A stretch of DNA of 64,000 nucleotides from Asterias amurensis (taxonomy: Eukaryota; Echinodermata; Asteroidea; Forcipulatida; Asteriidae). The stretch's first letter is position 1, and each line of letters opens with the position of its first letter. A model generated the notes under the pieces. It did no database searches and was not told the origin of the DNA. It was given only the letters and a program-made list of their open reading frames with translations. Both the position numbers and the translations under genes were made by a program. The stretch covers positions 15,466,450 through 15,530,449 of the forward strand of contig NC_092648.1 of the NCBI RefSeq assembly GCF_032118995.1. The letters run 5' to 3'. Below, in pieces: positions 24,924 to 56,934 of the stretch.

Positions 24924-28144
<3,221 letters not shown>

Positions 28145-42312: not shown

Positions 42313-42318
42313 TTTATT
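42313..42318 (-). terminator. candidate CCSAP polyadenylation signal
   Basis: AATAAA on the minus strand (plus-strand TTTATT), about 500 bp after the CCSAP stop. If used, the tandem copies at 42430-42812 lie within the 3' UTR. Confidence 0.35.
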
Positions 42319-42429: not shown

Positions 42430-42812
42430 AACTGTTTACAAGTTCTTGAGCATTCTTCATTGGATGGACTTGTTACCGCGATGGACCAATGAAGTTTTGT
42501 CTATACTCTGTTGTTCACCAATGAAGTTTCGCCTATAATCCGTTGTCCACAGAGTGTTGTACTTGAGCTCCTGGACGTGATGGACCAATGAAGTTTTGTC
42601 TATTCTGATGTCCACAGAGTGTCGTACTTGAGCTATTGGAATTCTTCATTGGCCCTGTTACCGTGATGGACCATTGAAGTTTTGTCTATACTCTGTTGTC
42701 CACAGAGTGTCGTACTTGAGCTCCTGGACGTGATGGACCAATGAAGTTTTATCTTTACTCTGTTGTCCACAGAGTGTCGTACTTGAGCTCTTGGAATTCT
42801 TCATTGGACCTG
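42430..42812 (-). repeat. tandem copies of the CCSAP C-terminal coding segment
   Basis: Reading the minus strand downstream of the CCSAP stop, the segment coding ACTCTGTGGACAACAGAGTA (peptide T-L-W-T-T-E) and AAACTTCATTGGTCCATCAC (N-F-I-G-P-S) recurs about five times: near 42725-42780, 42660-42715, 42575-42630, 42515-42560 and 42475-42515. Linkers alternate between a short GTCCAGGAGCTCAAGTACGAC and a longer one with CAATGAAGAATTCCAA. Copies differ in small changes and in whether the TAA after CGG is kept. They lie after the true stop and are not translated in the main frame. Confidence 0.9.
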
Positions 42813-44282
42813 TTACCGTGATGGACCAATAAAGTTTCGTCTATACTCCGTTGTCCACATCGTGTCGTCTCTTGGTTGGATATTGAACAAAGCTCTGAGC
42901 TTCTGCTCCTTGCGGCTTTGTTTGTCTTGTTCCTGTTGTCGTTGGATGTCTAGCTCCCTTCGTCGCATGGCTCTCAGGGCAGATGGGTAGATCTGTAGTG
43001 GCTAGGTGGAATTCAGAACAGAGTCCAATTTAATAAGTGGAAGTGGATTCCGCAGACATTTTACTTTGCTATTGTTAAAGGAAATGCAAAAGGTGTGCAT
43101 TGGAAACTTGGTAAATCAAAATACTGCATATGTTTTCCAATTTAGATTGACTCTTAATCAATTATGATTTAACTTCTTCAATCTTTTGAACTATGTAACG
43201 GCCACCATAATAAAAATTTATAAAATGAAATGGTCTAGAGGGAGATTCAGAAACTCAGAGCCCCAGTAAATACAAGATTCTCACATCTGCAGATGCCTTG
43301 ATATTGTGTGTCTTTTTGGATCCAGTTTTGAGTTCTCTATCGGCCCAACCAAATGCAATCATAGGTGCTCTCTCCTTCCCCACATCAACTCTCTTGCCTC
43401 CTGGTGCAGTATGAGGCCTGGCTGCTGCTGTTCTAACATCTCTCTGTGGCTTGGGCTTTTTGAGACGAAGTGGCTTCACTCGCTGTAAAACTGAGTTTAA
43501 AAAGGGGAACCACACTTTATGAAATTAGAATGGAAAGTTTCCAGACAAATTCAAGAATTCTTTACATGTAAGAATTAACATGCGATTCCTGGTTACAAGT
43601 GCATGATTCCTGGTTATGCATGATACTCAAAATGTGGGGCTAAACTTTGTCGCCCTGACCATGGGCCCAATTTCATAGACCTACTTAAGAAGTTGTGCTA
43701 ACCAGAAGGTCAATGGCCAAAACATACCACTTCACATGTCCCATCTGTAAATGGTCCTGCTCATTTTTGCTTAGAAAACAAAAACTCTGCTTAAAAACAG
43801 CCCTATTAAATCGTGACAAGATGTTTTCTTGTCACTATAACTTTTTATCAACTTCCAACAATACTTGTATAGGAAAAGTTTGAGCATTTATTTGAGTTGG
43901 AATTCAACAGTAAAGCTTGCGACAATATTGTAACATCAAACTACACTAAATATGAACCTTGGTCTGGCTGGGGTACATCTTGCTCTTGACGCATCTCAGA
44001 CTGTGTTTGTGGTTCATCAGTCCGATGTGGTGGTACTCTTCTTTCATATTCCTGTCCCTGGTTGTTGTTCTTGTTAGGGGCTGTACGGCTGTTGTTAGGG
44101 GCTGCTTCGATGTCACCCTGATCATTCTCACTGTCTGAAGAATCCCAGTCAAAGACCTCATGGTGATGTTCCATCCTACGGCGGTAGACTCGATAGTCGA
44201 CCTTCTCTTTGTAGTGCGGGAAGTGGCCATTCCATATGGGGTCTTTATACTGCTTTCTGTACTCACTCCTTGTGAACACCAT
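42813..44282 (-). CDS. CCSAP: centriole, cilia and spindle-associated protein (three coding exons)
   Basis: Minus-strand exons 44282-43958, 43490-43285 and 42992-42813 give 236 residues (human CCSAP is about 270). The N terminus MVFTRSEYRKQYKDPIW matches the vertebrate KSEY-x-YQEPRW block. Exon 2 has MIAFGWADRELKTGSKKTHN, matching the vertebrate ALYGWGEKQTDTGSQKTHN, and exon 3 has SALRAMRRRELDIQRQQ and ends MWTTEYRRNFIGPSR, matching the vertebrate SALRA and WMTEY blocks. The middle (WDSSDSEND, then N/Q/P-rich) is low complexity. The ATG at 44282 is chosen because it lies in CACCATGG immediately after a splice acceptor (tttactcacag), implying a 5' UTR exon upstream. In vertebrates CCSAP binds microtubules of centrioles, spindle and cilia. 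The gene is convergent with RAB4. Confidence 0.92.
43662..43805. mobile_element. GGGCCCAATTTCAT element fragment
   Basis: In CCSAP intron 1. Left end ATGGGCCCAATTTCATAGAC is clear; the inside has TTTTTGCTTAGAAAAC. The right end was not recognised. Confidence 0.6.
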
Positions 44283-56333: not shown

Positions 56334-56934
56334 AGGCCTGTATGCTTCGTTTTTGAGAGGGCAGGGACACCAAGTCACTTTCTCTTTGGTAAAAGGGCAC
56401 CCTGTGAGGATCTAGTCCTTTTTCTAGGATAATTGAGGTATTCCTTTACTATCATAAGATTAAAAAAGACAAAGTAACTGTGTTTTTCCTTGTAGGATGG
56501 TTGAGGCATTTCCTAAACCATCATAGGAATATAAAATACATAGTAACTGTGTTTTTCCTCCTAGGATGGTTGAGGCATTTCCTTAACCATCCTAGGAATA
56601 AAAAGGCATAATAAGTGTATTTTTTCTCCTATGATGGTTGAGGCATTTCCTTAACCATCCTGGGAGTAAAAAGACATAGTAACTGTGTTTTTCTCCTATG
56701 ATGGTTGAGGCATTTCCTTAACCATCCTGGAAATAAAAAGGACATGGTAACTGTGTTTTTTTCTCCTAAGATTGTTGAGGCATTTCCTTAAATATCCTAG
56801 GAGGAAAACGGGTACAATGACTATGTTTTTCCCCTCGTATGATAGTTGAGGCATGCTTTCCCTTTATACAGTTGACCAAGGGGGCATGGAGGCAATAGCC
56901 TTCGTTGCCTCTGTGAGGTGTCAGGCCTGTCTAC
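56334..56934. repeat. ~69-bp minisatellite (six units) between halves of a short element
   Basis: TTGAGGCATT recurs at about 56501, 56570, 56638, 56705, 56775 and 56846 (spacing 67-71 bp). Each unit contains an imperfect palindrome CCTAGGATGGTTGAGGCATTTCC / TTAACCATCCTAGG. The array is flanked by CAGGCCTGTATGCTTCGTTTTT...GGGCACC on the left (56334-56402) and GGAGGCAATAGCC...CAGGCCTG on the right (56879-56934). These are the two ends of a CAGGCCTG-type element, so the minisatellite grew inside it. Confidence 0.8.

Follow-up and report, generated by a model that had tools for sequence, protein, structure and literature searches.

The CCSAP gene

The window (the whole stretch of Asterias amurensis DNA that was analysed, 64,000 bases) lies at 15466450-15530449 of contig C1. 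On its minus strand it carries a three-exon CCSAP gene, which codes for a protein of cilia and spindle and was located by a profile search of the genome and completed with GT/AG sites and phase; the exon joins are a model from these sites and phase, not from transcripts. Positions 2-100, 153-201 and 202-257 of the Pfam profile PF15748 (260 positions) were matched in order in the genome family search.

43958..44282, minus strand: CCSAP exon 1, coding part (PF15748 positions 2-100; ends set by hand from the frames)
43285..43490, minus strand: CCSAP exon 2 (PF15748 positions 153-201; acceptor at 43490)
42813..42992, minus strand: CCSAP terminal exon, coding part and TAA stop (PF15748 positions 202-257; open reading frame 42813-43001)

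Exon 1 opens with an ATG at 44282 and has a predicted donor AAG/GT. The donor of exon 2 is GAT/GTGAGA, and the exon end was assigned by hand. The terminal exon, which ends ...DTMWTTEYRRNFIGPSR-TAA, may alternatively begin at an in-frame acceptor lying 9 bases farther upstream (first base 43001).

The spliced 236-residue model scored 120 bits against PF15748 over residues 5-231 (cut-off 27, E 2.4e-34), which places it in the CCSAP family. In the 62-residue terminal-exon frame, the Pfam match extends to residue 57, which corresponds to profile position 257 of 260; the stretch WTTEY thus falls inside the profile, as expected from the sequence-only reading, which had assigned it to the conserved end of CCSAP proteins. 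No family matches outside this one gene were found in the genome family search, in which three of three candidates were scored. A match of the model to PF18783 was disregarded (E 0.027, 15 bits against a cut-off of 30.2), and the PDB search returned no relative of CCSAP, only four weak hits (best E 0.17). CSAP associates with polyglutamylated tubulin (PMC4642972); nothing on a function for the protein's own tail was found in the passages of that paper that were consulted.

A six-unit array across the stop codon

A six-unit array runs on the minus strand from 42868 to about 42438. Its first unit lies inside the terminal exon and is followed by five more, not all of them complete.

42781..42868, minus strand: c1, A type, 88 bases (53 coding bases, the real stop and 32 bases of 3' UTR)
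42714..42780, minus strand: c2, B type, 67 bases, with two nonsense codons in the exon frame
42626..42713, minus strand: c3, A type, 88 bases, with I changed to N and the stop retained
42561..42625, minus strand: c4, B type, 65 bases, with a 2-base deletion
42516..42560, minus strand: c5, cut-off unit, 45 bases, linker lost
42438..42515, minus strand: c6, 78 bases with an A-like linker, its far end merging into unique sequence

Coordinates are positions in the window. The far edge of c6 (42438) was placed by hand and is approximate.

About five further copies had been noticed directly downstream of the terminal exon from the sequence alone, and five units do follow c1, in direct orientation and abutting the exon. 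The range proposed for them, 42430-42870, agrees with the array coordinates; the minus strand is a detail added here. The units come in two forms, A of about 88 bases, with the stop and a longer linker, and B of about 67 bases. B can be derived from A by deleting a single contiguous block of 21 bases that includes the stop; past base 46 this leaves one mismatch if c1 is taken as the source and two if c3 is. Tandem Repeats Finder (TRF) scored the array at 588 over 42517-42868, with a period of 155, 2.3 copies and 90% matches; the period is 155 bases because c1 to c4 are A and B units in alternation. When the last 57 coding bases were aligned with the sequence after the stop, the best local score was 74 against a maximum of 26 in 1000 shuffles, and the likeness between the CCSAP tail and the array is therefore not due to chance. 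With head-to-tail units of tens of bases at a single locus, the array is a minisatellite.

Each copy had been proposed to encode T-[ML]-W-T-T-E-Y-R-[RQ]-N-F-I-G-P-S-R. The alignment bore out the five downstream units, while the motif is intact and full-length in none of them. The second unit reads DTLWTTE*R*NF, c3 carries the I to N change, and c4 combines its 2-base deletion with a T to S change. In c5, E is changed to D, D is changed to N just before the motif, and the unit ends after IG; c6 is without the first motif residues, yet reads TTEYRQNFIGPS. Core identities between units range from 26/32 (c5-c6) up to 48/50 (c3-c4), and the identities of the like pairs are 80/88 for c1-c3 and 62/65 for c2-c4.

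Locus specificity and direction of origin

When the 441-base region was used as a DNA query, one place was matched in the 491.5-Mb genome. The DNA search omits very common words and scores the best candidates only, and a genome pattern scan agrees with its result: the 36-base core, with up to 3 mismatches, was found at four sites, all within the CCSAP array. The 62-residue exon query (E up to 10) matched itself and two downstream stretches of the array, with no others. The unit was accordingly found at the CCSAP locus alone in the DNA, pattern and exon searches of the genome, and did not prove to be a dispersed satellite. Among viral contigs, 15 pattern matches to possible relatives were obtained, none of which was confirmed.

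Because the unit was found at one locus only and the family profile matches this gene alone, we conclude that the gene seeded the array. The opposite direction, in which the terminal exon took up a pre-existing satellite unit instead of founding it, had been named beforehand as what a genome-wide dispersed repeat would mean. Tandem arrays are common in this genome, but no support for such an uptake was found; the tail lies within the CCSAP family profile up to position 257 of 260, and the unit is found nowhere else, even with three mismatches allowed. We regard uptake as exceedingly improbable. The derivation of the array from CCSAP coding sequence is upheld, and the array is real, gene-derived and locus-specific.

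Coding status and the predicted 3' UTR

The CCSAP stop codon precedes all five copies, and readthrough would add only three residues (QVQ) before a second stop. The unit lengths (88, 67, 88, 65, 45 and 78 bases) are not multiples of three, except in the cut-short c5 and c6, and the frame shifts along the array. The frame-shifting units, the nonsense codons of c2, the deletion in c4 and the stop ahead of the array show that it is not a protein-coding internal repeat, and there is no sign that it alters the CCSAP protein.

Private changes in the copies were counted by hand; changes that a copy has in common with the exon were excluded, as was the junction between c5 and c6, which is ambiguous. 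The resulting numbers are very small: 4 missense, 2 nonsense, 1 frameshift and 2 synonymous. For comparison, the single changes that are possible number 103 (missense), 9 (nonsense) and 32 (synonymous). On such small numbers, the private changes show no apparent coding constraint. A point against a view of pure drift is that c3 and c6 have kept readable tails, which leaves room for some use.

42313..42318, minus strand: AATAAA, the only AATAAA or ATTAAA from the stop to 41900

The sole AATAAA lies beyond the array, and the whole array would therefore sit in the predicted 3' UTR. A role in the RNA could in principle maintain it there, through hairpins formed around the stop by inverted CTTCATTGG and CCAATGAAG arms; these arms are 12 bases long, 92% complementary and recur in the array. 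Predicted folding was no better than that of shuffled sequence, neither over 601 bases (z -0.59, 5 of 20 shuffles as good) nor over 111 bases (z -0.27, 72 of 200 shuffles as good). The hairpin role was rejected on these values, and maintenance of the array for such a role is highly unlikely.

Exchange between units and a candidate alternative exon

Growth or contraction of the array could, in principle, swap which copy supplies the stop. The effects of in-register exchange were reckoned from the sequence. Exchange with c3 or c6 would keep the 62-residue frame and a normal stop; exchange at the start of c2 or c4 would truncate the frame to 52, a late exchange in c2 or c4 would extend it to 75 (13 extra residues), and exchange with c5 would extend it to 78. 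The array might on this account be a hot spot at which unequal exchange or gene conversion swaps CCSAP tails and generates protein length alleles in the population. The dependence of the frame (normal, truncated or extended) on the copy involved fits this, as does the likeness of the units, which is sufficient for recombination (80/88 in c1-c3, 62/65 in c2-c4). Against it, several of the exchange outcomes would damage the CCSAP tail, and three core sites, the start aside, set the exon unit apart from all of c2, c3, c4 and c6. In the one assembly these sites are ACG in the exon and ACA in the copies (TCA in c4), CGA and CAA (TAA in c2), and TTT and TTC, the last found in all five copies; c5 has ACG and CGA in common with the exon. 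From the three differences it follows that the exon unit was not recently converted by c2, c3, c4 or c6. We consider tail swapping unlikely, although it is compatible with the array being a 3' UTR minisatellite and our confidences in the two overlap. The proposal that changes in the array make length variants of the protein was not supported, given units that are not multiples of three, nonsense and frameshift copies, and a readthrough product of QVQ only.

Two sequences in the array could also serve as acceptors in phase 0 with exon 2. One is listed below; for the other, the first exon base would be 42570.

42714..42723, minus strand: candidate start of an alternative terminal exon, CAG/GAGCTC, phase 0 with exon 2

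If a second terminal exon is emerging here, exon 2 would be joined to the CAG/GAGCTC before c3 (or c5), and the isoform would skip most of exon 3 while keeping a WTTEYR-like tail (ELKYDTLWTTEYRQNFNGPSR-stop). The sites at 42723 and 42570 have a pyrimidine fraction of 0.65, equal to that of the acceptor at 42992, and c3 runs open to its own stop. A fraction of 0.65 is nonetheless weak, the phase would match by chance in one case out of three, the two candidate sites are copies of one sequence, and the isoform would lose the remainder of exon 3, which is part of the family profile. Such an exon is very unlikely.

Arrays in the genome and at other exon ends

Arrays with a period of at least 30 were surveyed in 20 stretches of 10 kb, drawn from 20 contigs at a single fixed position in each, and 23 merged arrays covered 9735 of the 200000 bases. 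The window holds 8 arrays, including the one at CCSAP, over 2658 of its 64000 bases. Since arrays are common in the sampled stretches, arrays near genes are to be expected.

Several of the other repeats in the window were recorded. A minisatellite with a period of about 68 bases and 6 copies lies at 56424-56854, its unit holding CTAGGATGGTTGAGG and an inverted-like CCTTAACCATCCTAG. A cluster of short-period arrays, with motifs like CGATCGGCCGATCG in both orientations, occupies 25812-26629, and tandem arrays with a period of about 190 bases are found at 2305-2899 and 201-579.

As controls, coding stretches with profile matches, taken from CCT, P450 and proteasome genes, were compared with their own flanks for self-copies. 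The sample comprised 43 of 58 CCT, 9 of 96 P450 and 8 of 21 proteasome matches; 102 mitochondrial carrier matches were left out. Of 63 tests, 15 covered the downstream side only, 40 covered both sides (350 bases) and 8 covered both sides, and they represent 60 distinct matches (3 in both sets). The score threshold of 40 was chosen by the analyst; control flanks may extend into further parts of the exon concerned, and a few matches lie in a common open frame.

Mitochondrial carrier matches lie about 88 kb apart on one contig in opposite orientation (C20, 6204897-6205652 and 6293657-6294412). Their scores are identical in two of three cases and near in the third (58.5 and 58.3 bits), and the arrangement looks as if it were a recent inverted duplication.

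One of the 60 control matches passed the threshold, a rough rate from three gene families. It belongs to CCT8 (T-complex subunit theta, best E 2.8e-15).

Contig C14, 14158500-14159560, minus strand: CCT8 array (match L045), with full units beginning near 14159468, 14159347 and 14159242

The CCT8 array repeats the end of an exon together with its splice donor (LRVDQ/GTAA). It extends into the next intron and consists of two partial units and three full ones, one of which is the exon's own. It leaves two further intact GTAA donors, and the terminal exon of CCT8 (IIMAKQAGGPKPP...) lies farther downstream. Below the threshold, several scores lay slightly above the maximum of their 20 shuffles, among them those of the control matches L052 (inverted, 33 against 23), L050 (24 against 20) and L073 (25 against 21) and of the inverted upstream flank of CCSAP exon 3 (23 against 18). 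No self-copies were detected in the flanks of CCSAP exons 1 and 2 by the same two-sided test. None of the remaining terminal stretches in the sample carried an array across a stop codon, and the sole like case is the CCT8 splice donor.

CCSAP is thus not the sole amplified exon end in this genome, CCT8 being another. That starfish, A. amurensis at least, repeatedly amplify 3' exon edges together with their boundary signal (the stop in CCSAP, the donor in CCT8) is a broader proposition, to which we give a low probability. If it were true, recurrent edge amplification would set rows of decoy stops and donors beside the live ones, and new tails, terminal exons and introns could arise from it time and again. 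The CCSAP and CCT8 arrays suggest that exon-edge amplification is frequent enough here to merit a survey, and this is the more interesting lead.

Proposed birth and growth of the array

The array is very probably an ordinary, locus-specific 3' UTR minisatellite born from the coding end of CCSAP, whose founding segment happens to span the stop codon. We infer the steps of its birth and growth from its anatomy throughout. A segment of about 88 bases across the stop codon would have been duplicated in tandem, probably via slippage or unequal exchange between short repeats, CAAGA being present in both edge flanks of the unit. In the model of Haber and Louis (PMC6947457), minisatellites are born through slippage or unequal exchange that involves repeats of 5-10 bases. 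CAAGA has only 5 bases, and the junctions seen (CTCAAGTACGACAC) differ from the simple CAAGA expectation by about two bases; as they would have been altered since, a birth mediated by CAAGA is something that we infer. One copy may then have lost 21 bases, including the stop, to give the short B unit, after which the A and B pair (155 bases) could have been copied again by exchange between the longer homologous units. Provided that the AATAAA at 42318 is functional, the downstream copies would be transcribed as part of the 3' UTR; they would remain untranslated and drift without coding constraint. The CCSAP protein is preserved, since the first unit has retained both its frame and its stop.

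The CCSAP array offers a clean case of a minisatellite that arose from coding sequence across a stop codon and whose founder unit is still in use, so that the constrained founder provides a reference for mutations in the free copies. For annotation, exon-end copies of this kind could mislead gene predictors.

Comparison with known systems

No case of a coding-tail array across a stop codon was found in the titles and abstract beginnings of open-licence PMC papers, and others may exist. The CCSAP array resembles the minisatellites of Haber and Louis (PMC6947457) in its CAAGA edge repeats, its unit of tens of bases and its later growth by a longer dimer; it differs in that the founding segment spans the stop and one unit is still functional coding sequence. 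With VNTRs in 3' UTRs, for example the one in the human dopamine transporter gene SLC6A3 (PMC8096271), it shares a tandem repeat in the (predicted) 3' UTR, but the first unit of the CCSAP array is the gene's own coding end, and the array is known from one assembly. The gain of an intron in potato RdRp (PMC4974935) is similar in that a short stretch was duplicated in tandem across a gene boundary, signals included. In potato the duplication involved a splice boundary and produced a new intron, whereas in CCSAP it involves a stop codon and no new product is known; the CCT8 array is nearer than that of CCSAP to the potato case.
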